This document shows positions 1 to 30,495 of a DNA stretch of 32,176 nt, piece after piece. The notes under the pieces were generated by a model. That model was given only the letters and a program-made list of their open reading frames with translations, was not told the origin of the DNA and made no database searches. Positions within the stretch are counted from its first letter, which is position 1, and every line of letters begins with the position of its first letter. The stretch is taken from the IMG/VR virus record IMGVR_UViG_3300017714_000080, positions 1 to 32,176 of that record; one strand, written 5' to 3'. This stretch comes from a virus. A program made the translations under genes and the position numbers.

Positions 1-2217
1 AAGCGATGTTACAAGAAATTGTTTAGCGTATAAGTATTGTGTTCCTGCTACTGGTGTTCCTCCGCCAGTTGAGTTAATCATTTCTAATTGTATTACATCA
101 CCAGCAAAAGCTTCACCAACATCGACATCATAACTTCTAAATGAGTGTACTGAAGATGATTCGCCTGAAGCTAAACCATATGAGAAAGATTTTTGAGCAT
201 TACCACCACCGTGATTTACCATACTCATAACTGTACCATTACGTGTAATTCTCCATGCCCAATAATAAGTACCCGATGCATTTTTAGCAGCCCATTTAAT
301 AGATAAAGATTTACAGTTTGCACCTAAAGTAAATGTTTTCATCGCTATCCAACTACTTGCATTATTATTATCTTGTTTAACTTCCATAGCTCTATCTGCT
401 ACTAAATGCCAATTATCACCAGCTGTAGAAGAAGTAGCATTCGGACCTTCGTATCCAATAAAGTCTGCACCATTATTTGTATTAGCTTTTAAATGTAATC
501 TTTCTCTCGCATTACCAGATGCATCTGTTACACCAAAAGTTAAATCAGTTTGTTCAGTTGTATGATTTACAAACTTAGCTCCAATATGAGCTCTATGTCC
601 ACTATCATTTTTAAAGAATAGTGTAGCATGATTAGAATCAGTTGTTCCAGCATTTTGAATTGTTATACCAGGTGCATTACCTGGACCTATTCCAGTATAT
701 AGATCTCCTGCAGAATTATTCGATGCTTTTGTGTGTAATAAACTATCTGGGTTTTCTTCGCCAATGCCAACGTTACCGCTATATGAAATTCTCATACTTT
801 CATCAAGTACACCAACTGTACCTGTTTCAAATGATAGTCCTGAAGATATATTAGTTCCTGAGTTTACTTCTGCGATTGACCTGATTCTTCCTACATTTTG
901 ATTAACACCATTATTTCTTTCTGCTTGGAATACTATAGCAGGACCAAACCCGGTTGTAGTTGTTCCAGTTGATAATGCTGTAAGATACATCATGTTTACT
1001 GCATCATTGGTTGTCGAATCATTTGACTGTATATGTAGTAAGGATGATGGAGCCGGTGTGCCGATACCAACATTGCCGTTAGCTAAAATTTTGAATCTGT
1101 TAGTACCATTATTAGTAGCAATACCAAAATTTAATGCACTTAATTCCATATTAAGATAAACACTGTTAGCTCTATCATAAGCTAGTATAAATTGATTATT
1201 AGATGCATGAGTAGTAACTTGAGTTTCAATTCCTTTACCACCATTACTTGCTGAAACTACTAATTGACTTGATGGATTACTCGTTCCGATACCAACGTTG
1301 CCTGTATTGGTAATACGCATTTTCTCTGTTGATACAGTATTAGAAGCTCCACCAGTATTTGTCCAAAAAGCTAGATCTGATGAAAAAGATGGGTCTCCTG
1401 ATGAGTTTTGAGCAGAGTGGCCGCGCATGATGGCTTGTATTTTTCCATAATCACGAATTGCAGTATTTCCGTAATCTTCACCTTGAAAATTTATACCCAT
1501 TCCGTAGCCACCATATGGAAAATAACCAGTAGCTTCTAGTGTTAATACATCTTCAACTGTGTTTCTGTTGCCTCCGCTGTTGGGAGCACTGCTGTATCTT
1601 ACATGTAACGGAGTTGATGGAACAGTCATTCCAATACCAACCTTTCCATCAGTTTTAAGTGTTATTTGAGGAGCAGCATTATTTGTAGCAAATGCTAAGT
1701 CATGGTTTGAGAGTGTAAATAATTCTGCTCTTGGACCATCACCAAGTGCATGCATTCTTAAAGTTACATCATTGCCTGAGCTATCTTTCGAACTTAAACT
1801 TAATGTTGAACGAGTGTTATTACCAGTGACAAGTAATTCGTGTATTGTAGTGGCTGCATTTGTAACTTGTACTTGACCAGTAAAATCTGGATTTGCTAAC
1901 GGTGCTTTAGTTGCAATTGAATTAACAAGAGTAGTATTTAAACCAGTATCATCGTTTAATGAAGCTGCAATTTCGTTAAGAGTATTTAACCCTGCAGGTG
2001 CACCATCGATAATATTATCAATTGCTGTTTTTACAAACGCAGTACTTGCAACAGAAGTATCATTATCACCTGCACTTGCTGTTGCGACCGTAACTGTTTT
2101 TCCAGTTAAGTCTAGAGTTGCATGTAAATCATCTGCTGTTATTGATGCATCAGTAATATTTCCTGCTGATATAGCATTACTACCGATGAGATTACTTGTT
2201 ATTTTAGTTAATGCCAT
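1..2217 (-). CDS. Tail fibre protein with VGIGT repeats (3' end outside window)
   Basis: The frame opens at ATG 2217 and stays open for 739 codons to base 1, so the C-terminus is missing. The N-terminus (MALTKITSNL) leads into a module at about residues 54-113 (LNTLNEIAASLNDD, then NSIATKAPLANPDF) that is shared with the 857-aa fibre. At least four VGIG-type repeats follow (KVGIGMTVPSTPLHV, NVGIGTSNPSS, NVGIGTPAPSSLLHI, NVGIGEENPDS), some preceded by ERMRI-like strands. This beta-rich repeat is typical of fibre shafts in T4-like marine phages. The last 140 visible residues change character (WAAKNASGTYYWAWRITRNG) and look like a globular domain; no S74 motif has appeared by the window edge. 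The stop of the upstream 82-aa gene lies only 15 nt away, and a late promoter box fills that gap. The role in adsorption is inferred from the family. Confidence 0.85.
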   Translation of the reverse strand, partial: MALTKITSNLIGSNAISAGNITDASITADDLHATLDLTGKTVTVATASAGDNDTSVASTAFVKTAIDNIIDGAPAGLNTLNEIAASLNDDTGLNTTLVNSIATKAPLANPDFTGQVQVTNAATTIHELLVTGNNTRSTLSLSSKDSSGNDVTLRMHALGDGPRAELFTLSNHDLAFATNNAAPQITLKTDGKVGIGMTVPSTPLHVRYSSAPNSGGNRNTVEDVLTLEATGYFPYGGYGMGINFQGEDYGNTAIRDYGKIQAIMRGHSAQNSSGDPSFSSDLAFWTNTGGASNTVSTEKMRITNTGNVGIGTSNPSSQLVVSASNGGKGIETQVTTHASNNQFILAYDRANSVYLNMELSALNFGIATNNGTNRFKILANGNVGIGTPAPSSLLHIQSNDSTTNDAVNMMYLTALSTGTTTTGFGPAIVFQAERNNGVNQNVGRIRSIAEVNSGTNISSGLSFETGTVGVLDESMRISYSGNVGIGEENPDSLLHTKASNNSAGDLYTGIGPGNAPGITIQNAGTTDSNHATLFFKNDSGHRAHIGAKFVNHTTEQTDLTFGVTDASGNARERLHLKANTNNGADFIGYEGPNATSSTAGDNWHLVADRAMEVKQDNNNASSWIAMKTFTLGANCKSLSIKWAAKNASGTYYWAWRITRNGTVMSMVNHGGGNAQKSFSYGLASGESSSVHSFRSYDVDVGEAFAGDVIQLEMINSTGGGTPVAGTQYLYAKQFLVTSL
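1893..1914 (-). repeat. 22-nt exact repeat, copy 1
   Basis: These 22 bases are identical to 7831-7852 and encode the IATKAPLA segment shared by two fibre genes. An 18-nt match also links 1972-1989 with 7910-7927. The copies are in the same orientation, 5.9 kb apart. Confidence 0.85.
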
Positions 2218-2222
2218 AGTTC

Positions 2223-2230
2223 TATTTATA
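2223..2230 (-). promoter_or_regulatory. T4-type late promoter box TATAAATA
   Basis: An exact minus-strand TATAAATA sits in the 15-bp gap between the 82-aa gene and the last fibre gene. The box is followed by GAACT and then ATG. With the usual T4 late spacing (box at about -13 to -6) the start site would fall on the A of the ATG. The AGGA before the box is about 13 nt from the start codon, which is far for a Shine-Dalgarno site. Confidence 0.65.
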
Positions 2231-2232
2231 TC

Positions 2233-2481
2233 CTATTCGCTAGGTATTTGCACAGATGTATCATCTGGGTCGTTCATTCTAGCATATATATTTTCCATTG
2301 TTACTGGTGTTATATTACCATCTACAAGTTCATATGTAAATGTTGTATCTAAATGTTCAACAGTTGAAATTGTACTTCCAGCTGGATGTGCTCCTAATAA
2401 CTCATTACCATTATCTACTTGATTATTATAAATGGCAAGAATTACGTTATCTTTTTTTATTATATGTGCGTATTGTGTCAT
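2233..2481 (-). CDS. Small hypothetical protein downstream of the 1025-aa fibre
   Basis: This 82-aa protein begins MTQYAHIIKKDNVILAIYNN and ends in an acidic tail (MNDPDDTSVQIPSE). I do not recognise a domain. AAGGA lies about 7 nt upstream of the ATG, a normal ribosome binding site. The gene begins 9 nt after the stop of the 1025-aa fibre and ends 15 nt before the next fibre. Small genes placed right after a receptor-binding fibre are often fibre chaperones or minor tip subunits (T4 gp38 and related tail fibre assembly proteins are the general precedent), but no sequence similarity supports that here. Tight packing and the good ribosome binding site argue that it is real. Confidence 0.75.
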   Translation of the reverse strand: MTQYAHIIKKDNVILAIYNNQVDNGNELLGAHPAGSTISTVEHLDTTFTYELVDGNITPVTMENIYARMNDPDDTSVQIPSE

Positions 2482-2490
2482 AGTTTTTCC

Positions 2491-5400
2491 TTATGCTGCG
2501 AAGTAACCTCTACCTTCGGCAAGAGATATTGTTTTAAAGTGATACTTACCACCAAGATTTCCCAATGCATCCATTTGGGCTTGAGTATTTGCTGATGAAT
2601 AATATCTATTACCTCCGAACGCAATTTCTGTTACTACATAATCTCTTTGATATGCACCGCCAGAATTTAAAGTAAGAGCAGTTCTATAAACAGTTTGGCC
2701 TGAATGCGACCCTCCACTATTTGTTGTGCTGCCTTTCGTAATGGTAGCAGGAGTTGCTCCCCAAGCAGTACCAGTATTATAATGAGTTGGAACTTCGTTT
2801 AAATATGAAGTACCTCCTACTTGTCTAAATAAATATTCTCTATATCCACCAGTAAAATATGTTGAGTATACTTTGAACCTACATACTGGGTATTCTCCCC
2901 AATGGCCTGAACTATAAATTGTTAAAAAATGTGTACTTGCTGCTCCACTACTTGGAGAAGTGACTGAAGGTGTTCTAAATATTGCATGAGTACCAAAATC
3001 AGCTCCATTTGCACCAATATAACTACCACCTACATCATATGTATATGTTCCACCGCCAAAAGCTTTTAAATATCTTGCAGTGGCAACATTTTTATGATCA
3101 ACAACAACACCATTACCACCACCATTACCAAGAGAAATTGTGTTATCATCTTGGTCAGCACCAGGACTTGCCGTTAATCCGTGATATGATAATGTACCAT
3201 TATTCGCTTTGGCTTTTAATTGTAGATGAATTACATCACCATTAGTATTACCTTCGAGTATTACTGCTGCAATTGAATTTGTAGCTCCGTCAATATGCAA
3301 CATTGCATCTGGACTATTTTGTCTAATTCCAACTTTAGCACTTGCACTTCCAAGTAATACATTTGTATAACCTTCCCCAACTTGTAGTACACCTCCAGTT
3401 GAATTACCTTCTAAGGCTCTAATACTTGTACCACCTTCAGTACCAAAATATAATCGACTATTATTATTTGCAATTTTAACTCCACCATCAACTGTTAGCT
3501 TTTCTTCTGGGGCTGTACAATTAATTCCAACGTTGCCAGCATTTGAAAGAAACATTGCGGTATTTAACTGGTCTCCAGTATTAACTTGAAAATATAAGTC
3601 TCCTTTAGCCTGTCCACCAGCAACAGCTTGTTGTGATAATATAGCAGCTCCACTATTTCCATTTCCAAGGATATTAGTTAAATCTCCACCACCAAATCGT
3701 ATGGCTATTAAATCGTTATAATTCTCTCCAACTATACCGAGAGTTGGGTTAGAATCTGCATGAATAATAAGTTCGTGTGCTGGTGTATCCGTTCCAATTC
3801 CAACTCCTGTACCATTTTTAATATATAAATCATTACCTGCAGAGCTATCAGTACCTGTTGTAAATCCTATATCTCCTGCAGCTTTACTATAAATTTGTCC
3901 TCTTAATGCTGTACCTGCGTTATTGAAAAATTGAAAAAAGGAATAATCATCAGCACTTCTTGCTCTCAGTGCAATAGCATTTGCTCCACTATCAGAAGTA
4001 ATAGTAAGAGGCTTATTTGGATTACTATTAGCAATACCAACATTACTGTTATTATCGAACAGTACGTTATTAGTACCATCATTCGTGAATCTTAATGCAT
4101 AACCATTATTAGCACCAACGTAAAGTTCATCGCCTGCACTAGCATAAATTTTTGATGCGTCAGTGCCAGCATTTCCAAGAATTAATCCACTATCTGCATC
4201 ACCATTTACAACTAAAGAACCTGTTACAGTTGCACCACTATTATTAACATTAAATCTACTACCTGCTGAAGATCCAAGAGTAATACCACCAGAATGATAT
4301 GATGTTATAAACATTGGTCGATTACTATCACCTTCTATTCGATGATTTGCTGTGTCCCATTGTCCAATATTTAATTGTGCAGAACCATTTAAAATTTTAA
4401 TTCTATCATGAAAAGTTGATAATGAACTTTCAGCAATAATTTTTCCACTTGCTTTAATATTTCCTGTAACATGTAAAGCTTCAGATGGACTGGTTCCACT
4501 ATTAATGCTTACTCTATCGTTTGTAACATCTACATATAATGTATCTGTATCAACTGCGAGTGGACCAGGTACTGTTACAACATCTGTATCTGCATTACCT
4601 AAAGTAGTTCCACCATCTACAATTAAATTTCCTGCTACTGTCATTCCAGCATCAGCCATTGTAACTAAGACATCACCATCAGTCCACGGTGCACTACCAC
4701 TACTTATATTATTTTTAAATATTATTGAACCAACATTAGATGAAGGACCGATATAAACATGATTCGAGTTATATCCTATTTTTCCTCTGTTACCGCTATT
4801 ATTAAGATCTATATAACCATTAGCAGCTAATACACCAGAAATTGCTACAGATGTTAATGTTCCTAACGATGTGATATTTGTTTGAGCTGCTGCTGTAACT
4901 GTTGCTGCTGTTCCAGATACATTACCTGTTACATTCCCGACGATATTAGCTGTAATAGGTTTATTTGCAAAAAATCTCTGATCTGAGTGACTCCATTCAA
5001 ATCGAGGTATAGTACCTGAAGACCAAGCACCGAATGTTAATCCTGCTCCATTCGTTGCTGCACTCGTAGTAGCATTTTTCGCTACTTGAATATTAAGATC
5101 CGCAACTTCCATCGTTGTACTATTAACAGAAGTAGTTGTACCATTAACGGTTAAGTTTCCGCCAATCGTAACATTTCCAGTTGTGGTTATAGTTGCCGAA
5201 TCAATATGTCCAGTTACATCAATACCATCTGAAGATGTAGCTAACTTTGAATTACCTGCATGAAACAATGTAAGTGCTCCACCAGTATCAGCGTGTAACA
5301 TATTTTGACCAGCTGAACTATGTAATGCAATATGTTCGTTTTGAATAATTAAATCTGCGCTTGCATTTACACCTTTTATATAGTTATGAGTATTATGATA

Positions 5401-5568
5401 AATTTCTAAATCATCATGAATACCTAATCGAATTTTTTTATTATCTGATAAATCTACGTGACCATGAAATAACGCATTTTCTGAGCTATCAAAAGATAGA
5501 GTAGTAGCATCACTAGAATCCGAGATTCCAGTATCGAGCATTCCTCTTGATGGTTTAGTTATTGCCAT
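2491..5568 (-). CDS. Tail fibre protein with a distinctive C-terminal tip domain
   Basis: This 1025-aa protein starts one base after the stop of the 857-aa fibre, so translational coupling is likely. Residues 40-65 carry the phage fibre motif KKIRLGIHDDLEIYHNTHNYI-like. Residues 131-205 hold the shared module VTIGGNLTVNGTTT...NGAGLTFG...EWSHSDQRFF, followed by GNVTGNVSGTA. The shaft contains VGIG-like repeats (NVGIANSNPNKPL, GVGIGTDTPAHEL, NVGINCTAPEEKL, KVGIRQNSPDAML). The last 160 residues or so differ sharply: they are rich in Gly, Tyr, Ser and His (FLTIYSSGHWGEYPVCRFK, YFTGGYREYLFRQVGG) and end SLAEGRGYFAA. No S74 protease is present. I infer a trimeric fibre whose C-terminal domain is a receptor-binding tip; this is not demonstrated by the sequence alone. 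Confidence 0.85.
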   Translation of the reverse strand: MAITKPSRGMLDTGISDSSDATTLSFDSSENALFHGHVDLSDNKKIRLGIHDDLEIYHNTHNYIKGVNASADLIIQNEHIALHSSAGQNMLHADTGGALTLFHAGNSKLATSSDGIDVTGHIDSATITTTGNVTIGGNLTVNGTTTSVNSTTMEVADLNIQVAKNATTSAATNGAGLTFGAWSSGTIPRFEWSHSDQRFFANKPITANIVGNVTGNVSGTAATVTAAAQTNITSLGTLTSVAISGVLAANGYIDLNNSGNRGKIGYNSNHVYIGPSSNVGSIIFKNNISSGSAPWTDGDVLVTMADAGMTVAGNLIVDGGTTLGNADTDVVTVPGPLAVDTDTLYVDVTNDRVSINSGTSPSEALHVTGNIKASGKIIAESSLSTFHDRIKILNGSAQLNIGQWDTANHRIEGDSNRPMFITSYHSGGITLGSSAGSRFNVNNSGATVTGSLVVNGDADSGLILGNAGTDASKIYASAGDELYVGANNGYALRFTNDGTNNVLFDNNSNVGIANSNPNKPLTITSDSGANAIALRARSADDYSFFQFFNNAGTALRGQIYSKAAGDIGFTTGTDSSAGNDLYIKNGTGVGIGTDTPAHELIIHADSNPTLGIVGENYNDLIAIRFGGGDLTNILGNGNSGAAILSQQAVAGGQAKGDLYFQVNTGDQLNTAMFLSNAGNVGINCTAPEEKLTVDGGVKIANNNSRLYFGTEGGTSIRALEGNSTGGVLQVGEGYTNVLLGSASAKVGIRQNSPDAMLHIDGATNSIAAVILEGNTNGDVIHLQLKAKANNGTLSYHGLTASPGADQDDNTISLGNGGGNGVVVDHKNVATARYLKAFGGGTYTYDVGGSYIGANGADFGTHAIFRTPSVTSPSSGAASTHFLTIYSSGHWGEYPVCRFKVYSTYFTGGYREYLFRQVGGTSYLNEVPTHYNTGTAWGATPATITKGSTTNSGGSHSGQTVYRTALTLNSGGAYQRDYVVTEIAFGGNRYYSSANTQAQMDALGNLGGKYHFKTISLAEGRGYFAA

Positions 5569-5569
5569 A

Positions 5570-8143
5570 TTATGCGTCCTCTAAAGCCTTTACTTTGGCT
5601 TCTAATGTTTCTATTCTTGCTTTTAAATCTTCTATAATTGTTTGTTGTTCTTGCACAGTTTTTACGAGTAATGGTACGAGTTTACTATTATCCAGCATTT
5701 GATAGTCAGGCACTGATGCTTCCTTAACATCTCCAACACTTTTGCCATCAGGTAATTCATCACCTTCGGTATAAAGCACTTGAGCAGTCATAGCATCTTT
5801 TGTTCCAACAACTGCGTCAGGAACTACAGCTGCAACTTCATGTGCTAAAAATCCATCGTATAATGTGTTTGTTGTATCTGATATATAATTAAATTTCTTT
5901 GGTTTTAGTTGTTTCAGTCTAGTAGTAGCATTTGTCATATCTGCTACATTTTCTTTTAATCTATAATCAGAGGTTCCACCATAGGTCATGACTGAACCGT
6001 TTTGAGATATACTTCCAATAGTGCCCCCATTATTTCTAAAAGTTATCATATTACCAGAACCAAGAGCACGGTTTAAAATAACTGGTGTATCATTATTGGT
6101 TGCTAATACTAACTGACCACTACCTAAAGAACCACAACTTATATTTGATGTTCCATTTGAAATACCTGACTGCGTAGTTGTATGGAATAAAAGAACTCCA
6201 TTAGAAAGAATACGCATTCTTTCTGTATATGATGTACCCGTATTAAGCGAAATATATCCAGAATCTAGTGAAAGTTCTGCACCTGTACTATGATACCCAT
6301 ACGCGTTTCTAATTGTAAACTTAGTTAATCCACTATTATCTGCATGGATAATTTGATTAGCCATTCTTATTTCAGAATCATCACCTGCTAAATGTAAATT
6401 TGAACCATTACCACCTATTCCTCCATTACCGGAAGTTGGGTATTTGTCTGCTGACCCACTACTAAATCTAGCTATTTCTGTACCATCTTGAGAGAATACA
6501 TGAGCATTTCCTGTAGCTCCAAAACCTACATTAGTAGTACTATCACCATCTCTAACTGACATGATGCATTTAGCATCTGTGCTTTCACCATAGAATACAT
6601 TATCTGCAGCTGCAGAGTTAACTGATAGTATTTGTGAAGAATATCCTGCATTGTTATTTCCAATAGCAACTCCACCATCTGACCTAATGCGCATTTTTAA
6701 AGTACCATTAACTTCAAAACTAGTATTACCACCGGCAGAGTTAAATCCTAACTCACTTCCTGTTCCTCTAATCCAGTTAGAAGTATTATTACTTGAGTTA
6801 CCTGTACTTCCAAGTACTAATCTTACTTGTGATGCTGATTGTGCGACTAAATAACCTGTGCTATTTTGTACACGGAATTTTTCTGCACCAGCTGGGAATA
6901 ATACAACATCAGAGCCATCACAACCTATTTCTGCTGAACCACCTGAATCTGTAAATTCTAATGCTGCAATCTGGTCTGTACTTTCAAACTTAGCAACTAC
7001 GTTTGTAGTTCCACTCTTTACATGAAGTTGTCTATCAGGATTTATTTCTCCTATACCAATATTTGAATTTGTATGAATACGCATTCTCTCAGTATATGAC
7101 CCACCACCCATAAATTTAACTGGGCCAGCACCTGACCACCCATATTCTAATTCATTAGAACCATTTATCCTAACTAGTGTTTTTTCATTGCCGCTTGAAT
7201 CTTTACTTCTTAATTCTCCGCCTCTTTCAAATAAGATATGGTTTGCATTACCAATGTGTAATGCTCGAAGAGGGTTATCTGTTCCAATACCAACGTTGCC
7301 TGTACTACTGATTCGCATTTGCTCGACAGGGGTTGCACCCGCTGCCCTAGTAGAGAAAAGCATAGCACTTGCTACATTTCCAGCAGTAGAATTTTCTTTT
7401 ATTCCTTGAATATTTCCAAAGTGATAAACATCTCCGCCTGTACCATTTGTATATCCACCAAAAGCTATACCTCCACCCGTTCCTGTGGTTGCAGAGGTTG
7501 TGTCGAATGCTAGTATGTTATTTTTAGCTTCTCCATTAAATCCAGTCGCACCTTGTACGTGCAAGGGAAAATAAGGAGCAGGATTTCCGATACCAACATT
7601 ATTACCAACCACATTCATAGCAATAGTACCAGTACCAGTACCTGTTCTAAAGTTTATGCTTTCGCTATCTCCATGACCCCAAAGTTCTAATTCCCCAGTT
7701 GATAAAAGCGATATTATACCAAGCTCAGACCCATTATTTAGTCTCATATGTTGAGCAGTACTAGTAATATTTAATGCTGCTGTTCCATGAGCAGCAACAC
7801 CTATACCTACTCTATTTGTAAATTGTGGAGTTGCTAACGGTGCTTTAGTTGCTATAGAGTTAGTAACTGTAGTTGAGAAACTAGCATCATCGCCTAAAGC
7901 AGCAGCTAATTCGTTAAGAGTATTTAATGCTCCTGGAGAGGAATCTACTAATGCAGTAATTGCAGCATCTGTATAAGCTGTTGTTGCGATTTTAGTAGAA
8001 TTATCAGAAGCAGATTGTGTAGTTGCAGTTGTAGCGCTTGCTAATGAACCACTTAATGAACCTGTTATTACACCAGCAGAAGATATTCTTTCTGTTGATC
8101 CTACGGTTAATCCGTTCTTAATTAAAAAATTTTTGTCAGCCAT
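5570..8143 (-). CDS. Tail fibre protein with C-terminal S74 autoprotease/chaperone
   Basis: The protein is 857 aa. Residues 49-109 carry a module shared with the leftmost fibre gene (GALNTLNELAAALGDD, then NSIATKAPLATPQFT). The shaft has VGIG-type repeats (NVGIGNPAPYFPLHV, NVGIGTDNPLRALHI, NIGIGEINPDRQLHV), each preceded by ERMRI-like strands. The S74 intramolecular chaperone begins at about residue 725 with SDYRLKEN. In this family the Ser and Lys of the SDxRLK motif form the catalytic dyad and the chain is cut just before the Ser after trimer folding. GFLAHEVAAVVPDAV and a closing coiled coil (ARIETLEAKVKALEDA) complete the domain. GGAG lies about 10 nt upstream of the ATG. A late promoter box lies 38 nt upstream. 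Confidence 0.92.
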   Translation of the reverse strand: MADKNFLIKNGLTVGSTERISSAGVITGSLSGSLASATTATTQSASDNSTKIATTAYTDAAITALVDSSPGALNTLNELAAALGDDASFSTTVTNSIATKAPLATPQFTNRVGIGVAAHGTAALNITSTAQHMRLNNGSELGIISLLSTGELELWGHGDSESINFRTGTGTGTIAMNVVGNNVGIGNPAPYFPLHVQGATGFNGEAKNNILAFDTTSATTGTGGGIAFGGYTNGTGGDVYHFGNIQGIKENSTAGNVASAMLFSTRAAGATPVEQMRISSTGNVGIGTDNPLRALHIGNANHILFERGGELRSKDSSGNEKTLVRINGSNELEYGWSGAGPVKFMGGGSYTERMRIHTNSNIGIGEINPDRQLHVKSGTTNVVAKFESTDQIAALEFTDSGGSAEIGCDGSDVVLFPAGAEKFRVQNSTGYLVAQSASQVRLVLGSTGNSSNNTSNWIRGTGSELGFNSAGGNTSFEVNGTLKMRIRSDGGVAIGNNNAGYSSQILSVNSAAADNVFYGESTDAKCIMSVRDGDSTTNVGFGATGNAHVFSQDGTEIARFSSGSADKYPTSGNGGIGGNGSNLHLAGDDSEIRMANQIIHADNSGLTKFTIRNAYGYHSTGAELSLDSGYISLNTGTSYTERMRILSNGVLLFHTTTQSGISNGTSNISCGSLGSGQLVLATNNDTPVILNRALGSGNMITFRNNGGTIGSISQNGSVMTYGGTSDYRLKENVADMTNATTRLKQLKPKKFNYISDTTNTLYDGFLAHEVAAVVPDAVVGTKDAMTAQVLYTEGDELPDGKSVGDVKEASVPDYQMLDNSKLVPLLVKTVQEQQTIIEDLKARIETLEAKVKALEDA
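7831..7852 (-). repeat. 22-nt exact repeat, copy 2
   Basis: Same-orientation partner of 1893-1914, within the N-terminal module of the 857-aa fibre. The DNA identity is higher than that of the surrounding protein module requires, which would fit recent exchange or a recombination site. Confidence 0.85.
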
Positions 8144-8169
8144 TGGTTTTCACTCTCCAACCATTGTTT

Positions 8170-8193
8170 GTTGTATAGATCTATTTATACAAC
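8170..8193. repeat. Inverted repeat spanning a late promoter
   Basis: Eight-base arms (GTTGTATA at 8170-8177 and TATACAAC at 8186-8193) flank an 8-base spacer in the 51-bp gap between the 977-aa and 857-aa fibre genes. One arm overlaps the TATAAATA box. The predicted start site (about 8176) lies inside the other arm, so the symmetry is mainly at the DNA level and could be a protein-binding site. Confidence 0.6.
8182..8189 (-). promoter_or_regulatory. T4-type late promoter box TATAAATA
   Basis: An exact minus-strand TATAAATA followed by GATCT, in the gap before the 857-aa S74 fibre gene. The predicted leader of about 33 nt contains GGAG, and a four-codon frame (ATG GTT GGA GAG TGA) precedes the real start. 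Confidence 0.75.
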
Positions 8194-8194
8194 T

Positions 8195-11128
8195 TTAAAT
8201 CTTAATCAGAGTTTTTTCGGCTTTAATAGTTTGTGTACTAGATCCAGTTCTAGTGTATTGTAATATCATATTACTACCAGAATATGTAGCAGAGAATGTT
8301 CCTAATGCAGCAGATCCAGTAAATATTTGTCCGTACTCTGTTATTGAAGCAGTAGATCCATTATGCACTAATAATAATTCAGTTATCATGTATTCACTAC
8401 CAGAAGTTACTTGTGCAATTACTTTAGCAGAACGATATGTTCCAGCAGATAAAGTAAGAATCGAAGTTGCACTTCCTGCACTTATTGTTGCAACGACATC
8501 ACCTGTAACTATTTGTCCGTTTGTAACATCACCATCTGTGTCCCATTGAGGACCACCAGAGGAGATTTTTGCAGGTGTTACGGATCCGTTCGTTGGTACT
8601 CCAATTTCAGTTAATGAAGGAATTATTACTTCAATCACTACACCTGTAGGAACATTAGCATCGAATGTTAACGTTGTTCCTGAAACAGAGAATGTTGATT
8701 TATTCTGATATACACCATCGGCGAATACAAAACAATTATCTTCAGTTGCTGGATTTCCAGATAATGTATAAGCTGCAGTGCTTCCATTACCTGTGAATGA
8801 ATCTTGAATATGTCCGGTTCCTACAACACCGTTTCCTACAGCATGAACTACAACTTCAGATCCAGTGGTTGGAGCAGAATCTAATGTTAATGAAGAACCA
8901 CTAAGAGTATATGAATTTTTATTCTGATATACACCTTCGATAAATACGATTAAATGATCTTCATCAACTGGAGATGCAGATAATGTAAATGCGGTTTGAT
9001 TCGAAGTAGATGTATATAAATCTGTTTGAAAGGGATTTAAATATGCAGCATTACTAATCGTAACTGAGTCAGCACTCGCATCAGTTGTTAATGTTATACC
9101 TTGACCAGCTACAAAAGTTAATGAATCGTTTTCTTGTTCAGCAACTACATTAGATTGTCCTGAAACAGAGATAGTTCCGAATGAATCTCCACCCCCACCT
9201 ATTTTACCCCACGCACCATCTGCGTATCCTTCAAATTCTGAAGTAGTTGTATTATATCTTAATTGACCTAAAGCTGCTGTTGGTCTTTGACCTGTTGTTC
9301 CATTTGGAACTCTTAATGCATCTGTTTCAGAACCAATATCTAAACTAACTGCAGGTGAATTTGTGCCGATACCGACAGTACCACCACTATAACCACTATC
9401 TCTAACTACAAATCCATTTGAGTGGTCACCTACTTGAGTATAACCAGCATTAAATCTTTTAAGAAGATTATAACCATTTGATGAATCATTAATTCCATTT
9501 GCTAAAACTAATCCGTTTGCACCTAATTTTACATCATGATTGAATATAGCTGTTCCTGCATCTGACATATCAAGGGTAAGGGCAGTTATTTCAGAACTGC
9601 TATCTTGTCCTTTAAATATTATGTCTCCGTCTGTTCCATTAGAATCTATAGTCGTATTGATACCATCAAGAGTTATAGTTGTAGTTGCAGAAGAGCTTGT
9701 ATCAGTAAGTTTTAAAACTGGAGTACCATGACTTATATTAACTGGATGCGAGAAATCAAACTTATCATTGGTTGCGTCCCATAATATCGTTGCATCTGTT
9801 GAAGCATTAACCGCATCTTGTATTGTAAGTCCTGCACCATCAGCAGTACTTGAAGTATCTCCTGAACCTTTATTTACAGTTATGTTTTTATCCGCAACAT
9901 CGAGTGTTGTACTATTAACTGTAGTAGTTGTTCCGCTTACCGTTAGGTTTCCACCGACTGTAACATTACCTGTGGTTACAAGTGTTGTTGCACTTCCACC
10001 AGAAAGATATGTTTGAACATCAGAATCTGCATACGCAGCACTACCTGCAATTACACCACTTCCAGAAATTGTTATGTTTGAACCTGCACTAATATGTGCA
10101 AGTACTTGAGCTTGACTTGGACCTGTATATGTGATAACACCAGAGCTTGAATTATATGCAAGTGAACCATCTCCACCTGAATCAGTTACTGATATTGCAC
10201 CACGTGCATTTGAATCTGCATATTGTGTAATTGTACTAGTCATTACACCAGTAGAATTATTATATGATAATCCCGTACCTGCGCTTATGCCCGCCCGGGC
10301 GCGCGCGGTAGTAAAATATAAATTACTTGATCCTTCAGATAGATTATCTGTATCAAGATTATTTAAACTAGAAACTGTACCTGTTACGTTACCTGTTACA
10401 TTACCGTTGACATTACCTGTTAAATTACCAACTAATGCATTTCCTGTTATTGTTCCAGTTGCAGTTAAATTTACAATTTGTTCTGTTGTAAAATTCCCGA
10501 CATGAGTAACAACTTCAATAGCTACACCTGAAGGAGGAGCTGTAGAGAAAGTTAGAGTTGTTCCACTGATTGAATAGTTTGCTTTACTTTGGTAGATACC
10601 ATCGAAAAATACTAGAGTTTGATTTTCATCTATAGGATCTGTTCCTAAAGTATATGCTGTAGTAGAACCATCACCATCACCCAAAGCTTGAGATATATCA
10701 TCACCTCTACCAATTGTTTTCCACCATGTAATGATTTGAATATCATCACTTGCTGTTGCACCATTAACAAGCACAACTGTTGCACCATTAGAAGCAGTAT
10801 AATCTGTAGTGAGTTTTAGTAATACACCATTTTGATACACATTGAGTGCACCTGGAGTATAACTTAGGGTGTTTGAATTTGCATCGGAGCCTGAAAACGT
10901 TGTTTGATTTGAAGTTGCAACGTATGCGTATTCTTTTAAAATATCTGATGCGGATGCATCTGATGAACCTATTTGAACAACAGATTCTGTGCCACCCACA
11001 TTCTTTTTCATGTAGGCTTTACCGTCGTAAGTATTAAGGGCTATTTCACCTAAATCTAGATTCGATGTGGTTGGGATTGAACCAGCAGTAGCTGATCTCC
11101 TCAACTGGATATTTGTAATACGTGCCAA
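8195..11128 (-). CDS. Tail fibre-like structural protein with four copies of a YQNK-type beta domain
   Basis: The start codon is TTG at 11128 with a strong AGGAG six bases upstream; no better ATG lies nearby. The N-terminus (MARITNIQLRRSATAGS...LGEIALNTYDGKAYMKK) resembles the N-terminal domain of major tropism determinant-type proteins. A domain of about 60 residues occurs at about 150-212, 704-767 and 776-838 (AYTLSxxP...VFxDGVYQNK...SGTTLTF), with a diverged copy at about 70-137. Residues 235-250 are a GNLTGNVNGNVTGNVTG repeat, 269-290 the LYFTTARARAGISAGTGL motif, and 388-465 the [11 protein letters not shown] module shared with other fibres. One VGIGTNSP repeat lies at 585. The C-terminal 100 residues (MITELLLVHNGS, ITEYGQIFTGSA) form a separate domain common in T4-like marine phage fibres. 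The 977-aa protein has no S74 domain. Confidence 0.88.
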   Translation of the reverse strand: MARITNIQLRRSATAGSIPTTSNLDLGEIALNTYDGKAYMKKNVGGTESVVQIGSSDASASDILKEYAYVATSNQTTFSGSDANSNTLSYTPGALNVYQNGVLLKLTTDYTASNGATVVLVNGATASDDIQIITWWKTIGRGDDISQALGDGDGSTTAYTLGTDPIDENQTLVFFDGIYQSKANYSISGTTLTFSTAPPSGVAIEVVTHVGNFTTEQIVNLTATGTITGNALVGNLTGNVNGNVTGNVTGTVSSLNNLDTDNLSEGSSNLYFTTARARAGISAGTGLSYNNSTGVMTSTITQYADSNARGAISVTDSGGDGSLAYNSSSGVITYTGPSQAQVLAHISAGSNITISGSGVIAGSAAYADSDVQTYLSGGSATTLVTTGNVTVGGNLTVSGTTTTVNSTTLDVADKNITVNKGSGDTSSTADGAGLTIQDAVNASTDATILWDATNDKFDFSHPVNISHGTPVLKLTDTSSSATTTITLDGINTTIDSNGTDGDIIFKGQDSSSEITALTLDMSDAGTAIFNHDVKLGANGLVLANGINDSSNGYNLLKRFNAGYTQVGDHSNGFVVRDSGYSGGTVGIGTNSPAVSLDIGSETDALRVPNGTTGQRPTAALGQLRYNTTTSEFEGYADGAWGKIGGGGDSFGTISVSGQSNVVAEQENDSLTFVAGQGITLTTDASADSVTISNAAYLNPFQTDLYTSTSNQTAFTLSASPVDEDHLIVFIEGVYQNKNSYTLSGSSLTLDSAPTTGSEVVVHAVGNGVVGTGHIQDSFTGNGSTAAYTLSGNPATEDNCFVFADGVYQNKSTFSVSGTTLTFDANVPTGVVIEVIIPSLTEIGVPTNGSVTPAKISSGGPQWDTDGDVTNGQIVTGDVVATISAGSATSILTLSAGTYRSAKVIAQVTSGSEYMITELLLVHNGSTASITEYGQIFTGSAALGTFSATYSGSNMILQYTRTGSSTQTIKAEKTLIKI
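10289..10308. other. 20-base run of pure G/C inside the 977-aa fibre gene
   Basis: Twenty consecutive G or C bases stand in an AT-rich gene. On the minus strand they encode the ARARAG core of the LYFTTARARAG motif, using GCG, CGC, GCC and CGG codons that are scarce around it. The frame is intact. Confidence 0.9.
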
Positions 11129-11134
11129 TTTTGG

Positions 11135-11139: not shown

Positions 11140-11148
11140 ATGTTCAAT

Positions 11149-11162: not shown

Positions 11163-11182
11163 GTTATTTAAAAATTTGTCAC

Positions 11183-11198
11183 ACCGTTATTTAACGGT
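11183..11198 (-). promoter_or_regulatory. Hairpin at the predicted 5' end of a late transcript
   Basis: On the minus strand ACCGTT and AACGGT are separated by a four-base loop. The predicted start site from the adjacent TATAAATA is at about 11199, so the hairpin would lie at the extreme 5' end of the RNA. It is not followed at once by a U-run, so I favour a stabilising 5' hairpin over a terminator, with low certainty. Confidence 0.45.
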
Positions 11199-11204
11199 TA
11201 ATAT

Positions 11205-11212
11205 TATTTATA
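11205..11212 (-). promoter_or_regulatory. T4-type late promoter box TATAAATA
   Basis: An exact minus-strand TATAAATA begins five bases after the stop codon of the 510-aa gene and lies 77 bp upstream of the TTG start of the 977-aa gene. It is the longest leader predicted in the fibre locus apart from the box at 18083. Confidence 0.75.
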
Positions 11213-11217
11213 ACGAT

Positions 11218-12750
11218 TTAATAGGTTCCGCCATCGATGATACTTGACCAAGATACTGTTCCATTTGCTGCACCTTGTAATATATTACCTGCTGCAGAAG
11301 AAACTCTTTCTGTTGGTGCTGATGTACCATTACCAACAATAATAGCATTTGCAGTGATAGATCTTTTACCTGTACCACCTTGGCCAACTGAAAGTCCAGC
11401 ACCTGCTGATAACGTTACTGCTCCACTTACTACTAATGCATCATCAATAGTGGTTGTACCACCAGCTGAATCAATTGTTAAGTTACCTGATGATGTATCT
11501 ATTTCACCATTCGCTGTAACACCAACTTGAACTGTATTAGCTTTTACACCACCAACATCTAATTGACCTTTTGTTCCTGTTATAACACCTGAAGTATCAG
11601 TTGCATCCGGAATAAATGTAAATTTCCCTGTTGAATCGTCAAAACCAAAGAAACCTAATTTTGCAGCAGATCCATTATGCCATCTAAATTCTAAACCTCT
11701 ATCAAGGTTATCATCCGAACTTGGAGCTGTATCACCACCAACAACAAATATTGGATCATCAACTGTAACTGTTGTTGAGTTTAATGTGGTTTGTGTTCCG
11801 TTAACTGTTAAGTTACCACCAACAGTCATGCTACCAGAAGTTGTTACTGTATCACTTGAACCATTACCTAAGTTAACATTTCCGTTAACTGTTAAATTAT
11901 CTGTAACAAGTAGATCTGAACCAATTGTTACATCATCTGGTAAACCAACTGTGACTGTTACATCAGTACCAGATTTTGCTGCAGCTGTTACAATCTCGTT
12001 TGATGTTCCAACGATTCTTAAATCGTCTGTTAATAAAGCTACATCTCCTGTTCCTGAATCACCATCAACTGTAAGAGCTGTTGCGAGAGCAACTGTACTT
12101 GCAGCAGTTAATCGACCTTGAGCGTCAACTGTAATTACTGGAATTGCTGTTTGTGAACCATAAGATCCTGCAGATACTGCTGTATCATCAAGATCAATTG
12201 TTATTGTTTGACCTGAAGCTGATGTTGTAATACCTGTATCACCAGCAAGTGTAAGTGATTGTGAATCTAAATCAACTGCACCTGTACCAGAATCACCAGC
12301 AACATCTAAATCTTGAAGTGTTACTTGTGCATCTACATATGCTTTAATTGATTGTTGAGTAGCAAGAGCAGTATTACTATTTGAAGACATATTATCTTCA
12401 TCTTTAATAGAATCAATTGCAACTGCAGCACCTAATGCACCTGAAGCTGCTATTTTTAATGCAGCTGTATTAAATTCATTGACATGTTTATTACCATTTA
12501 ATATTAAAGCACTTGACGCAGTAGCAGTACCATGTACATGATCGAGCATATCGGTAAAATATTTTCCGCCAATAACCGATACTGTCGATGCATATGGACT
12601 TTCATTACCTGTACCAATATAAAGTCTATCACCATTATTTGCTTGTGATCCTCCAACATAAGAGTATGCGAGCTCACCTGTGTATATATTACTAGGAGCT
12701 GCGGCGGTTGCGCTCGTAGTTAATATCTTAATTCTTGTTAAATTTGCCAT
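11218..12750 (-). CDS. Tail fibre-like structural protein, Mtd-like N-terminus
   Basis: The protein is 510 aa. The N-terminus (LTRIKILTTSATAAAPSNIYTGELAYSY, then GDRLYIGTG) resembles the short beta domain that begins many fibre and tropism proteins. Residues 125-140 contain TALATQQSIKAYVDAQ, common in phage fibres. Residues 192-335 ([21 protein letters not shown]...GLPDDVTIG...GGNLTVNGTQTTLNS) closely parallel a block in the 1535-aa S74 fibre. LSVGQGGTGKRSITANAIIVGNGT and the end IIDGGTY close the protein. AGGGA upstream of the ATG serves as ribosome binding site, and the gene follows the 82-aa gene by 3 nt. It is probably a fibre or collar-type trimeric protein; there is no S74 domain. Confidence 0.85.
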   Translation of the reverse strand: MANLTRIKILTTSATAAAPSNIYTGELAYSYVGGSQANNGDRLYIGTGNESPYASTVSVIGGKYFTDMLDHVHGTATASSALILNGNKHVNEFNTAALKIAASGALGAAVAIDSIKDEDNMSSNSNTALATQQSIKAYVDAQVTLQDLDVAGDSGTGAVDLDSQSLTLAGDTGITTSASGQTITIDLDDTAVSAGSYGSQTAIPVITVDAQGRLTAASTVALATALTVDGDSGTGDVALLTDDLRIVGTSNEIVTAAAKSGTDVTVTVGLPDDVTIGSDLLVTDNLTVNGNVNLGNGSSDTVTTSGSMTVGGNLTVNGTQTTLNSTTVTVDDPIFVVGGDTAPSSDDNLDRGLEFRWHNGSAAKLGFFGFDDSTGKFTFIPDATDTSGVITGTKGQLDVGGVKANTVQVGVTANGEIDTSSGNLTIDSAGGTTTIDDALVVSGAVTLSAGAGLSVGQGGTGKRSITANAIIVGNGTSAPTERVSSAAGNILQGAANGTVSWSSIIDGGTY

Positions 12751-12753
12751 GTT

Positions 12754-13002
12754 TTAATATGTCCCTGAACTTATATTGAGGTTTTGATTCTCAATTGTTG
12801 TTTTCATTTCGTAATTACCAGTAGAACCATTGAAGATCATCATTGCTCCATCAGTTTGTCCTGCAGTATTTACATTACTTAATTCACCAATTCCAATTTC
12901 GAATGCACCAAGCCTAACGCTCTGTGCAACGATCTCTTGTTGACCCTTTTGTTTACCTTTAACTTTAGAAGTGGTATTTATCTTAGCTTTTAGCTGTGCC
13001 AT
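12754..13002 (-). CDS. Small virion-associated protein ending in SSGTY
   Basis: This 82-aa protein has a basic, polar N-terminus (AQLKAKINTTSKVKGKQKGQQ), a central segment (VRLGAFEIGIGELSNVNTAGQTDGAMMIFNG) and the C-terminal SSGTY. The central part resembles the beginning of Mtd-like fibre N-termini. Its last residues parallel the C-terminus of the next protein (IDGGTY). The ATG follows the TAA of the 110-aa gene directly, with AGGAG 12 bases upstream, so the two are probably coupled. Function is unknown; position suggests a fibre adaptor or minor structural protein. Confidence 0.75.
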   Translation of the reverse strand: MAQLKAKINTTSKVKGKQKGQQEIVAQSVRLGAFEIGIGELSNVNTAGQTDGAMMIFNGSTGNYEMKTTIENQNLNISSGTY

Positions 13003-13335
13003 TTATCGTGTAACTCCTGGTGTAACTTCTATTTGTCCTTGTATAATTCTAGTAACCGTTCCTGCTGAACTGGTAATTTCTACATCGTATACGTATCTAC
13101 CAGCTTCTATAGCATTCGTTTGTGTAGCAGTTAAGCTTATAGCTACTTGTCCTAGACCAGCATTTTGAATTGCACATGTGAAATCAATTTTATTTGCAGA
13201 GTCGAAACTCTTTCTCATTTGTCCAGCTACAGAATATCCTGATAAAACTAAAATATTATTATCAACATCTGTTACGTCAACAGAAGCATTAAATGTGCTT
13301 CCTTGATCCAATGTTAAATTACTATATATTGCCAT
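13003..13335 (-). CDS. Small beta-sandwich structural protein
   Basis: The 110-aa protein (MAIYSNLTLDQGSTFNASVD, then LVLSGYSVAGQMRKSFDS, AGRYVYDVEI and RIIQGQIEVTPGVTR) alternates short beta strands. The pattern of a linear-polarising D-x-G-S-T-F strand, a GYSVxGQMRKS strand and a final QGxIEVTPGVT strand resembles the N-terminal domain of baseplate upper/BppU-like proteins; this is judged from the pattern only. Its ATG abuts the stop of the 1535-aa S74 fibre, and a late promoter box lies 18 nt upstream inside that gene. A fibre-attachment or baseplate-decoration role is inferred. Confidence 0.75.
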   Translation of the reverse strand: MAIYSNLTLDQGSTFNASVDVTDVDNNILVLSGYSVAGQMRKSFDSANKIDFTCAIQNAGLGQVAISLTATQTNAIEAGRYVYDVEITSSAGTVTRIIQGQIEVTPGVTR

Positions 13336-16300
13336 TTAACTGTCTACCTTACTATTTATACTTTTTAATTCTTCCACTTCGGATTTTAATTCTTTTATTG
13401 CTTCAATAAGTAAAGGAACTAATTTCTCATATTGAACAGTTTTATAATCATTGTCTCCTTCAACAACTTCTGAATTAATCGGAGCATCTTTTACTGCTTG
13501 TGGTAAAACTGCTTCAACTTCTTGAGCCGAAACACCTACTCTTTCTTCTTTTTGATATCCAAGTTCTATTGCTCTTTCGTTTGGTTCGTATATAAACCCT
13601 GATAAACTATTTACTTTATCTAATGCATTATCTATAATACCGATTCTTGTTTTTAATCTATCATCTGAATAGAAAGCTGTAATATCGTTAGTTGCTCTTA
13701 TTTCACCCGCTGTACCTGATGCATCTGTACCTACACCAAAAGAACTAGCTCTTATTGATATGTTTGGTGCAGATGCTGACATAAATGAACCAGCTGAATA
13801 TGTTGTATTTGTGTCTGTCGAAGCAATATTAAATACTCCAGTTGAGGGCTCACTAATCGTTACGTTTGAACCGCTTTGTAAAGTAATACTACCAGTTCTA
13901 TATGAACCCGAATCTTCTCTTATTTGAGTGATTGTATTTGTATTCGTATCGGCATCATCTCTCCAATTAGGATTACCGGATGCATCAGTTTTCCAAACTT
14001 TATTTGCTTGACCTGAACCTGATGCAACATAACCCTCGCTTGAACTTGTATTGGCATGCCATGTATTATTATCTGATGAACTTGTTCCTGCACCGATTAG
14101 TGTTCTAATTTCTGGACCAGTAATATTAGTTGCTAATGACGGATTATTACCATCTGTTGTGATTGCCGGAGCTGCAGTATTTGTTGCTCCACTTGCAACT
14201 CCAATAATTCCTAATACTTCTGATGCGGTTAATGCAGTTACATCACCAGCATTATCTGCGGTTCTACCAATGATTGTATTCGTTGCAACGTTTTGGTATT
14301 TAGCATGAGTAACAGCACCATCTACAATTGTTTGTGCACCATCAGAAGCTGAAGTTACATCACCGGTGTGATTCGGGTGACTATACTCAACATTTGGCGA
14401 ATCGTTTGTAATAGTTAATGTGTTATTTGCTCTATTAAACTGAGTTGATATTCCAGTTCCACCATCAAAAGAAACTGTCTCAGCAGAAGCAATCTGTTCA
14501 TTTCCACTACCAATATTTCCGTCTGAATCAATTATCCAATGACTATAATCATCATATCTCGTATCAAAGTCATCCTGTGTTACTGCTTGAACACGACCAT
14601 ATGCATCTACTATTATTGATTTAATGTATCTACCATCAGCTGTGCCTGTTGGACCAAAAGTATGACCGGCTGCAGGAAGAGCAGCATTGTCTAAACTGAT
14701 TACATTACTTCCAGAAATTGCAATTTGACCAGATGTTCCAGAATATGTTGTGTTAGTAGATGTCCATGTAAATGTTCCAGTAGGACTTTCGGTAATTGTT
14801 GTATTACCTGATGCGGCAAGAGTAACTTGACCAGATCTGTGATTACCAGCAGATCCAACCGTTGTTCCTGCACCGATAGTTGTCCACGTGAAACCTTCCG
14901 TTGTAGAATTGTATGCTAGTACTTGACCATTAGATGGATTAGCATTAGCCTTTAAATGTTTTTCAAATATTTTCTCATCGCCAATAGTTGATGTACCGGT
15001 AACATTAGCTGATCCATTAAAACTAGCAGATGTCCATGCAACATCACCTGTCATTGCGATTGTTCGGCCAGTTGCTAAAGTTCCTGCGCTACCTGAGGTA
15101 TTACCTGTTACGTTACCAGTAAGATTACCGGTAAAACCTACTGCACTATAAACTCTTTTATTGATATCTAATCTTGCAGATGAATTATTCCATAAGATAG
15201 TTGGTTTCGTGCTTGATCCTCCAAATTCTAAACCAGCTCCATCTGTTTGTGCTAATGTTGTAGTGTTCTTTGCAAATCTTAAAGTAGTATCTTCTATATC
15301 TAAGTTTGCAGTGTTAATTGTAGTGGTTGTTCCACTTACTGTTAGATCACCTGCGATTGTTACGTTAGTAGGTAATCCAATTTTAATTTTATTATTCGAA
15401 ACAACGGTATCAATTTCGTTAGTTGTTCCTTCGAAAGTTAATGTATCACCATTATTAAATGTATCATTAGATCCTGAATCAGCAGAGAGTGTAAATGAAC
15501 TTGATATTGCTTGCGTAGTTACTGCAGTGACGAGACCTTTTCCATTTACTGTTATAACTGGAATAGCTGTTTGAGAACCAAAACTACCAACGTTAGAGTT
15601 AACCGTATCTAATGTAACACCAATATTAACATTACCAAGATTGGTCATTGTAGCATTTCCATCTACATCACCTGAAATAGTTATTACTGGATCATTAACA
15701 TTAAAATCAAAGTTATCGTTAGCATCGTCCCATGCAACTACAATACCCGATTCATTATTGTTTGCGATTAAATCTTTTGCATTATAGAATGTTACTATCT
15801 CAGCAGTATGTGTTGTACCATCATCTTTTAGTCCAAGCAATTGCCATGCTCTTTCTGGTGTAGATCCAACTAATCCTTCATTCCATTGAATAGCAACATC
15901 ATTTTTATCTGCTGCAGAAACGTGTGCTCTATCAACCTTTAAACCCATTACGTTAACGTTAGCATCTAATTCAATAAATGCATTTCCAAGAGCTAATGTA
16001 CCACCACTACCACCAACGAGGAGTGAAGCGCTTGATAAATCAAGAGTCGTACCACTTGCAAAAACAAAAGTTTTACCTGATGTTGCGAAATTTAAATTAC
16101 CTGAAATTGATTGTGTGAGACTTCCACCTTGAAGATTAAGTCTACCTTGTGTGGTACCATTTCCTTGTAGTGCAGCAATGTCTGTATCATTACTTCCTAT
16201 ATTTGTTGCGTTAGTGTTAATTTCTCCATGCAATTCATTGATTGCACCAGATAATGTGGTTGCACTTGTTCCTAAATTAGCTGCACCTTGTTTTAAATCT

Positions 16301-17943
16301 AATTCATTAATAGCTAATACAATGTTAGTATCTGCAGTCGTTGTTAAATTACCTATTGTTCCAATATCACCTTGTAATTCATTGATTCCATCCATAATTG
16401 TGGTTGATGAGAATCTACTATCGAATGCTTGAGTAGGTTCTACTCTTGTATTTAATACATCAATCTCTGCTTCTAATTCTGCAATCGCAGTAGTCACAGT
16501 TGATGCTGTTGTTCCCATATTACTTGCTGTAGGATTACCCATTTTAGCATGTACTTCAACAAGACCAGCAGAAGCGCTTACTGCAGAATATCCAGTCGCA
16601 TCGTTAATTGTATTAACATCACCGAGTTCAACTCTTAATTCTCTTGCAGCTGCAGATAAATCAGTCGCTGTCAGATTAGTTAAAGTCATATTACCGATAT
16701 CAACTTCATGCTCGTTAATAGCAGCTACTAAATCATTTGCTGCAGTGCTTAAAGTATAATTACCAGCAGATCCTCTAACAGCTGTTTCTATTTCATTAAT
16801 AGAAGAAACAACATCAGATTTGTTCGTAGTACCAAGAGAGGTGATATCACCTACATCATCTTGTACTTCGTTAATAGCATCGATAGCATTGCTTGCATCG
16901 ATTTTAATTACATCACTCGCAGATGCACCAGTATGTAATTCAATAAGTGTTCCTATTGAGGTATCAACTGCAGTACTTGAAGATATGCCTCCATGTGCAA
17001 TGGAACCTGTTGCTCCATTAATTTCTAAATTTCTACTCGTTGAAAAAGAACCAGTAGAAGTTTTCATTCTTGCACTTGTTGAAGTGATATCGTATAATGT
17101 ACCTTGCCAATTGGCACTTGCAAAATTACTATCTGATTGATATAGTGTTGCACCTTCTGAGAAAGTTGTTGGAATACTTGGGTTTCCAGTAAAATTGATT
17201 GTTAATGCATGATTAACAACGTGGAAACCACCAGCTGTTAAGTCTTGAGGTAATTCAGTTGCACCTTTATAAACTCTTACAACACCGAAATTATAAATTT
17301 CATTTTCTAATCTTCCTACATTACTTGCAGCAATTGAATCTCCTCCAATCGAAACTGCTTCAGCAGCATTAAATGTACCTGTAATATTTTTAATTAATAA
17401 TTTTTTTGTATGAGTTGCATCACCAATAGGAGATACTATAACTGCTGTAAATGTATTTGAAAAACTTAGATCAACATTATTTCCAAGAGTTTGTGCTGTA
17501 GATAATACAATAGATGTTCCATTAATTGACACAACAGTAGGAGTACCAGCTATTCCTGTTCCTGAAACTGTTTGACCAACTAATATTAAACTATTCGCAG
17601 CATCGAGTGTAACGTTTGCACTTGAGTTAACTGCACCATTTGTATTTACTGTTACTTTCTGAGTTACAGTTGCGTTTGCTACAAAGGAAGATGGAACTGT
17701 TGGATTCGCTTCGAATATAATATACCCTGAATCATTATCAAGTGTACGTTCATTAGATAATTCAAAACGTGTTGCAGGAAATACTCTATCATGTGCTGCA
17801 GCAGTTGTTAAATATTCTTTATCTGTTATTCGTGAATCAAGTAAATCAGTATCTCCTAAATGTAAAGAGATCTCATTATCTTTTTGCCTCCAATCTTCGA
17901 AGGTATTTGTTTTTAATATTCTGGTTTCTTTATTAATTGCCAT
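13336..17943 (-). CDS. Giant tail fibre with INEL repeats and C-terminal S74 autoprotease
   Basis: This 1535-aa protein begins with [18 protein letters not shown], an N-terminus I associate with T4-like cyanophage fibres and probably the virion attachment part. Residues about 350-575 hold nine short repeats of the type AINELxxxIG ([61 protein letters not shown]), likely a helical or mixed shaft. [11 protein letters not shown] and [13 protein letters not shown] modules at about 785-935 are shared with the 510-aa and other fibres, and [13 protein letters not shown] follows. The S74 domain begins at residue 1426 ([10 protein letters not shown]; Ser and Lys as expected dyad), with [17 protein letters not shown] and a terminal helix. 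Autocleavage before Ser1426 is expected from the family. The ATG overlaps the TAA of the 72-aa gene by one base. Confidence 0.92.
13353..13360 (-). promoter_or_regulatory. T4-type late promoter box inside the end of the 1535-aa gene
   Basis: An exact minus-strand TATAAATA is embedded in the codons for SINS, seven residues before the stop of the S74 fibre. The predicted start site at about 13347 gives a leader of only about 12 nt for the 110-aa gene, without a clear Shine-Dalgarno site. Confidence 0.6.
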
Positions 17944-30491: not shown

Positions 30492-30495
30492 ATTC

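Follow-up and report, generated by a model that had tools for sequence, protein, structure and literature searches.

Modules of the fibre proteins in a probable host recognition cluster of a marine myovirus are mainly inherited with gene position

Introduction

Do the fibre genes of a phage that share sequence modules exchange them with one another, or does each gene keep the modules that belong to its place in the genome? The question is raised by IMG/VR record IMGVR_UViG_3300017714_000080, a fragment of 32,176 bases that was analysed whole (the window) and that has every long gene on the minus strand. Six large fibre-like proteins (1535, 510, 977, 857, 1025 and at least 739 amino acids [aa]) fill positions 1-17943, of which 99% is coding. 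The original prediction, made from the sequence letters, had taken this locus for a system that shuffles modules among its own paralogues to vary host range. We instead assign the block, with a probability of about 0.85, to a T4-like marine myovirus related to pelagimyophages and cyanomyophages, and read it as a host recognition cluster whose modules are mainly inherited with their gene position (slot) and whose mosaics arose by recombination between phages, concentrated at a VGIG(T) motif.

Shared modules of the fibre block

The fibre genes, all on the minus strand, are lettered in reading order. Slot A (13336-17943; 1535 aa) has a conserved N-terminus, a variable middle and a C-terminal S74 intramolecular chaperone, and slot B (11218-12750; 510 aa; phrog_15769, E 2e-46) has full-length orthologues of 57-67% identity at the same place in relatives. 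Slot C (8195-11128; 977 aa) contains two DUF4183 stretches (Pfam E 1.4e-11), and slot D (5570-8143; 857 aa) combines an LNTLNE module, VGIG shaft repeats and a C-terminal S74 domain. The fibres of slot E (2491-5568; 1025 aa) and slot F (1-2217; at least 739 aa, its frame still open where the contig stops) are mosaic.

An all-against-all BLASTP comparison of the fibres, the check proposed with the original prediction, recovers the modules that had been described for this locus. The 739- and 857-aa proteins align at 31% identity over 403 aa (E 1e-31), the 1025- and 1535-aa proteins at 47% over 99 aa (E 4e-18), the 977- and 510-aa proteins at 52% over 56 aa, and the 510- and 1535-aa proteins with an E value of 1.5e-15; 20 rounds of shuffled fibres gave 0 matches in the same comparison. 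Motif counts far exceed those in shuffled sequences: a GGNLTV-type motif occurs once each in the 1535-, 510-, 977- and 1025-aa proteins (four against a shuffled mean of 0.0), GN[VL]xGN six times in the 1535-, 977- and 1025-aa proteins (0.02), VGIG nine times in the 977-, 857-, 1025- and 739-aa proteins (0.3), and LNTLNE twice, in the 857- and 739-aa proteins (0.0). Motifs arising by chance were rejected on these shuffles.

A hidden Markov model (HMM) of the GGNLTV module matches exactly the four proteins originally named for it, at 15157-15369 (aa 859-929 of the 1535-aa protein; E 2e-20), 11608-11835 (aa 306-381 of the 510-aa protein; E 2.9e-26), 9746-9973 (aa 386-461 of the 977-aa protein; E 1.7e-23) and 4960-5181 (aa 130-203 of the 1025-aa protein; E 9.6e-23). 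The LNTLNE...IATKAPLA module lies at 7790-8053 in the 857-aa protein and at 1852-2103 in the 739-aa protein. The S74 motif SDxRLK is found twice, and Pfam confirms Peptidase_S74 in both proteins, at 13489-13668 in the 1535-aa protein (E 3.5e-10; also PDB 6f45, a long tail fibre distal subunit, E 7e-6) and at 5810-5971 in the 857-aa protein (E 8.3e-10). All these modules lie on the minus strand. Module copies show in-register DNA similarity of 77-78%, those within the window being 78% identical at best.

The AlphaFold2 (AF2) model of the GGNLTV module is confident (predicted local distance difference test score, pLDDT, 85) and resembles models of phage fibres at E ~1e-5; the fold is predicted in many phage structural proteins, and the model has no match in the PDB. 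By Foldseek, the model of the copy at 9746-9973 also matches two algal-virus proteins, EsV-1-56 (E 7e-4) and Micromonas pusilla virus SP1 (E 2e-3), and the predicted module may thus reach beyond phages. A search for tandem repeats returned a single 12-nt array of 4.3 copies, and expansion of such repeats was rejected as a source of the modules; a search for RNA elements returned no Rfam match.

Inheritance of modules by gene position

We collected 203 distinct GGNLTV modules from 330 fetched loci (individual loci are given L numbers) and labelled each by the position of its gene relative to VrlC, the baseplate protein gene that borders the block upstream, and to a 110-aa gene within it. On a tree of the modules, built from 78 columns and weak in its single branches, the position labels change 29 times, against 86 when shuffled. 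The nearest neighbour in another genome occupies the same slot in 141 of 167 labelled pairs (84%), compared with 28% expected by chance. Among nearest relatives below 85% identity, the same-slot share is 37 of 42 in slots A and B and 14 of 31 in slots C-G. Modules therefore pass down for the most part with their slot; this tendency is strong in the proximal pair, A and B, and weak in the distal slots.

Among the 128 modules for which a second copy could be detected on their contig piece, only four have their nearest relative on the same genome (L171 slots C/F, L022 slots C/D, and L306). This stricter count supersedes an earlier one of 20 of 140, in which near-identical contigs had been merged. 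Since so few modules are closest to a same-genome copy and 84% have their nearest neighbour at the same gene position, no shuffling system within the locus is supported. The comparison that had been named as a possible refutation, same-position orthologues against local paralogues, thus came out against shuffling.

The window's own modules largely behave in the same way. The GGNLTV module of the 510-aa protein tracks slot B, to which its nearest labelled relatives belong, and that of the 977-aa protein, 87% identical to slot C of L263, likewise keeps to slot C. The 1535-aa protein has an S74 domain that tracks slot A. In the 857-aa protein the LNTLNE module tracks slot D, being 88% identical to the orthologue in L005 and 54% to its own paralogue, while that of the 739-aa protein is 67% identical to the same slot of L168, 74% over 77 aa to L334 and 54% to its own paralogue. 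The GGNLTV module of the 1025-aa protein has moved between slots: it is 70% identical to slot C of L091, L123 and L259, and none of its own paralogues exceeds 53%. Gene order is conserved in relatives, with colinear orthologues along the slots; the N-termini of the slot A and slot C fibres are present in 119 and 123 loci, respectively, the window counted. The fibre block itself is variable between relatives and its flanks are syntenic.

Genes and repeats that could drive programmed variation were sought in the window, which is a fragment and not a whole genome. It holds no reverse transcriptase (RT) family, and three related records hold no RVT_1; a diversity-generating retroelement (DGR) was rejected on this ground and because the repeat differences spread over many base types, rather than being the adenine-specific changes of a TR/VR pair, and in D1 fall more on third codon positions. 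No invertase or recombinase gene is recognised in this fragment and no long inverted repeat is present, the best being 34 nt at 79%; with such weak and short repeats only, an invertible tail-fibre segment was likewise rejected.

Mosaic fibres and their break points

The 1025-aa fibre and its counterpart in L168 are unrelated up to residue ~508, and from NVGIANSNP onward they are 85% identical at the DNA level over 1818 nt, through the following 82-aa gene. The shared cassette (2232-4045, minus strand) comprises the distal ~517 residues of the fibre and the 82-aa gene (2233-2481, minus strand), a candidate tip chaperone that travels with the tip and is 85% identical (aa) in L168 beside the same tip. 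This gene has no match in PHROGs or in a phage collection, nor in the fetched contigs other than L168. Identity inside the 1025-aa fibre jumps sharply, from <30% to >90%. L169 has in common only the next repeat after the break, from a VGI motif to the VGIGT of GVGIGT (3790-4040, minus strand; 82% DNA identity over 251 nt), and both of its flanks differ.

The 739-aa fibre is a mosaic of three sources: its N-terminal part resembles L334, one repeat resembles L333, and its C-terminal part is 59% identical to a fibre of L335. The repeat (1047-1302, minus strand) runs from VGIGT to VGIGT and matches the last fibre of L333 with 91% DNA identity over 256 nt. The 857-aa fibre has a segment starting at NVGIGN in common with L331 (7281-7581, minus strand, right end approximate; 87% DNA identity over 301 nt). 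From these sequence comparisons, pieces have moved between fibre genes, and the mosaicism is real, with sharp joints that stay in frame. The modularity of the original prediction stands, as does the movement of pieces between genes (the 1025- and 739-aa fibres here; L171, L022 and L306 among relatives); shuffling among paralogues is not supported.

Three rearrangements were also seen in relatives. In L171, slot C (6218-9949) and a distal fibre (13261-17603) have a segment in common, 78% identical at the DNA level over 324 nt, which is likely a within-genome copy. The slot B orthologue of the same locus (4323-6125, 600 aa) carries the region corresponding to residues 302-400 of the 510-aa fibre twice in tandem. 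The L005 orthologue of the 977-aa fibre (11638-15282) has its segments permuted, with residues 62-234 of the 977-aa fibre placed after 238-463.

The joints were mapped in 67 non-redundant fibre open reading frames (ORFs) with VGIG-like motifs, taken from loci found with the window's proteins. Break points were defined as independent interior ends of alignments of at least 80% identity, which gave a small sample of 24, and were scored as lying at the motif when both partners had a VGIG-type motif no more than 21 nt away. Twelve of the 24 lie at such a motif, compared with 13% for random positions inside the same alignments and with 2% on average (8% at most) when motif positions are shifted by 45-210 nt. 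A null that moves the two partners independently was judged too lenient, and these two controls were used in its place. Two further break points fall where the LNTLNE module ends (K-x-PLA). Wider scans with the VGIG-rich parts yielded five loci only, and among the papers listed in a literature search for the string VGIGT none concerned phage fibres. We advance only tentatively the wider idea that marine phage fibres in general use VGIG(T) as a joint for exchange: the ~85-residue repeats between motifs would be cassettes that different phages trade between fibre genes that are not orthologous, the distal slots receiving and the proximal slots remaining stable.

Borders, small genes and relatives

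In reading order, the block is preceded by a tail protein (30699-32030), gp5-like, gp25, gp6, gp7-like and gp8 genes, and VrlC (18170-23632, minus strand; Pfam DUF4815, E 1.9e-48; phrog_358, E 0). VrlC is followed by a 72-aa virion structural gene (17943-18161, minus strand; phrog_473, E 9e-17), in the position of HTVC008M gp058, which overlaps the start codon of the 1535-aa fibre gene by one base. Behind that fibre come a 110-aa LtfC-like or "L-shaped tail fiber assembly" protein (13003-13335, minus strand; phrog_1084, E 6.5e-29; phrog_3304, E 9e-23) and an 82-aa small conserved protein (12754-13002, minus strand; phrog_13853, E 1e-6) that keeps the same place in relatives. The 510-, 977-, 857- and 1025-aa fibres follow, then the second 82-aa gene and the 739-aa frame that runs open to the contig end. 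The six fibre ORFs were in place as originally listed; as corrections, three small genes (82, 82 and 110 aa) are interspersed among them, and the 72-aa gene had been missed.

The nearest cultured relatives are the Pelagibacter phages HTVC008M and Mosig and the Methylophilales phage Melnitz, with 32-40% identity in VrlC and gp6, and HTVC008M (NC_020484) has the same gene order. In L168, the last fibre is followed by genes for Ad2 (head-tail adaptor), Hc2 (head closure) and a sheath stabiliser, and the window therefore holds only part of the cluster.

Elsewhere in the window, the gp7-like protein (25065-27311, minus strand) is 748 aa long and has repeats in common with gp8, whereas its length is 1016 aa in HTVC008M and exceeds 4400 aa in P-HM1; an unlisted short frame of ~67 aa lies between the gp5-like and tail protein genes (30492-30698, minus strand). 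Seven TATAAATA sites, which we take to be the T4 late-promoter core, all lie on the coding (minus) strand (2223, 8182, 11205, 13353, 18083, 25100 and 29684). Their total count is not above chance, and six of the seven have a gene start no more than 100 nt downstream, a number that 0 of 5000 random placements reach.

Discussion

The region between VrlC and gp14 in pelagi- and cyanomyophages has been named the host recognition cluster (PMC7029224). The block described here resembles it in its place after gp25-gp6-gp7-gp8-VrlC and, in L168, before the neck genes, in its several fibres with a small LtfC-like assembly protein, and in its variability between relatives. It differs from that of HTVC008M in its shared backbone proteins, which are 32-40% identical, and in its at least six fibres, with no metabolic genes in the part seen here. 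The block would encode six or more fibre or baseplate-attached proteins, so classed by homology and presumably trimeric, in a conserved slot order after VrlC and before the neck genes, the proximal fibres having conserved N-terminal domains of their own. Their middles and tips draw on one shared stock of modules, both shaft and domain. Recombination between co-infecting phages, using short similarity at the shaft motif, would generate mosaics, also across different slots, and crossovers concentrated at the VGIG(T) motif that ends each repeat, where break points are enriched, may yield in-frame chimeras that keep the fibre register. A tip could move together with the small gene behind it, as seen once here for the 82-aa gene, a putative chaperone. 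The gene class suggests a role of the locus in host range, with a change of receptor specificity as the likely use.

Several elements of this reading have precedents. T-even adhesins are known to recombine between conserved motifs (Tetart 1998, as cited in PMC3797505), and glycine repeats flank the hypervariable parts of T-even gp38 (PMC6027323). As in the T-even distal adhesins gp37/gp38, short conserved motifs part exchangeable segments, and a tip can move with an adjacent small gene; here, however, the motif lies in shaft repeats and several fibre genes take part rather than one. Domain mosaicism is concentrated in phage receptor-binding proteins (PMC10684548), and the fibres studied here similarly join near-identical segments to unrelated ones in otherwise diverged proteins, but most copies track gene position and exchange is concentrated in the distal slots. 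The Alteromonas phages A5 and V22 show a tail fibre and its chaperone common to distant phages (PMC10579305), which parallels the tip and following small gene found as one unit in otherwise different phages, except that the 82-aa gene, with no PHROGs or phage-collection match, is only a candidate chaperone. Two fibres resemble those with an S74 intramolecular chaperone (Peptidase_S74; PDB 6f45) in their C-terminal domain with SDxRLK, where cleavage is predicted only; of the other four, three have no S74 by Pfam and the 739-aa fibre is cut off.

Other explanations of the shared modules fare poorly. A dedicated system shuffling modules among paralogues within one genome, by invertible segments, a DGR or frequent gene conversion, would explain why fibres of the locus have modules in common and why L171 (87% aa identity, 78% DNA over 324 nt), L022 and L306 each carry a module nearest to a same-genome paralogue. 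It is nonetheless very improbable given the four cases among 128 modules, copies in the window that are at most 78% identical in DNA and, in D1, differ mostly at third codon positions, and the lack in the window of an RT or recombinase family and of long inverted repeats, with no RVT_1 in the three related records. We give equally little credence to ancient duplications followed by purely vertical divergence. The conserved gene order, the N-terminal orthology and the tracking of slots by most modules agree with it, yet the module of the 1025-aa fibre clusters with slot C modules from other phages, one-repeat cassettes are 82-91% identical within otherwise different fibres, and the 977-aa fibre has an orthologue in L005 with permuted segment order; the sharp identity breaks inside the 1025-aa fibre contradict purely vertical descent.

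Least credible of all is that the common motifs reflect low-complexity or convergent fibre composition rather than homologous modules. The motifs are indeed short and the fibres have a high content of G, N, S and T, but the shuffled controls gave no matches, the HMM matches span E 1e-20 to 1e-26, the DNA similarity is in register, and the modelled fold resembles that of phage fibres.

Some observations weigh against slot inheritance with motif-centred exchange between phages. Slots in relatives were assigned from gene order, and extra ORFs could shift such a label by one; 10 of the 24 break points fall at neither the VGIG nor the LNTLNE-end motif class; and the cassette of tip and 82-aa gene is known from a single relative, L168. 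The AF2 model of the 1025-aa tip is poor (pLDDT 48), which makes its structural matches meaningless, and the closest phage available for comparison is only 65% identical in VrlC, too distant for dating or watching an exchange in this population.

Motif-guided swaps, mosaicism of receptor-binding proteins and the sharing of a fibre with its chaperone are already known; this locus adds, modestly and subject to a test on a larger set, the VGIG joint and the proximal-distal contrast among slots. The picture of a shuffling machine gives way to a measured one, in which gene position is conserved, proximal fibres are stable and distal fibres are mosaic, and the finding of half of the high-identity break points at one shaft motif offers a testable rule for tip exchange among abundant marine phages.

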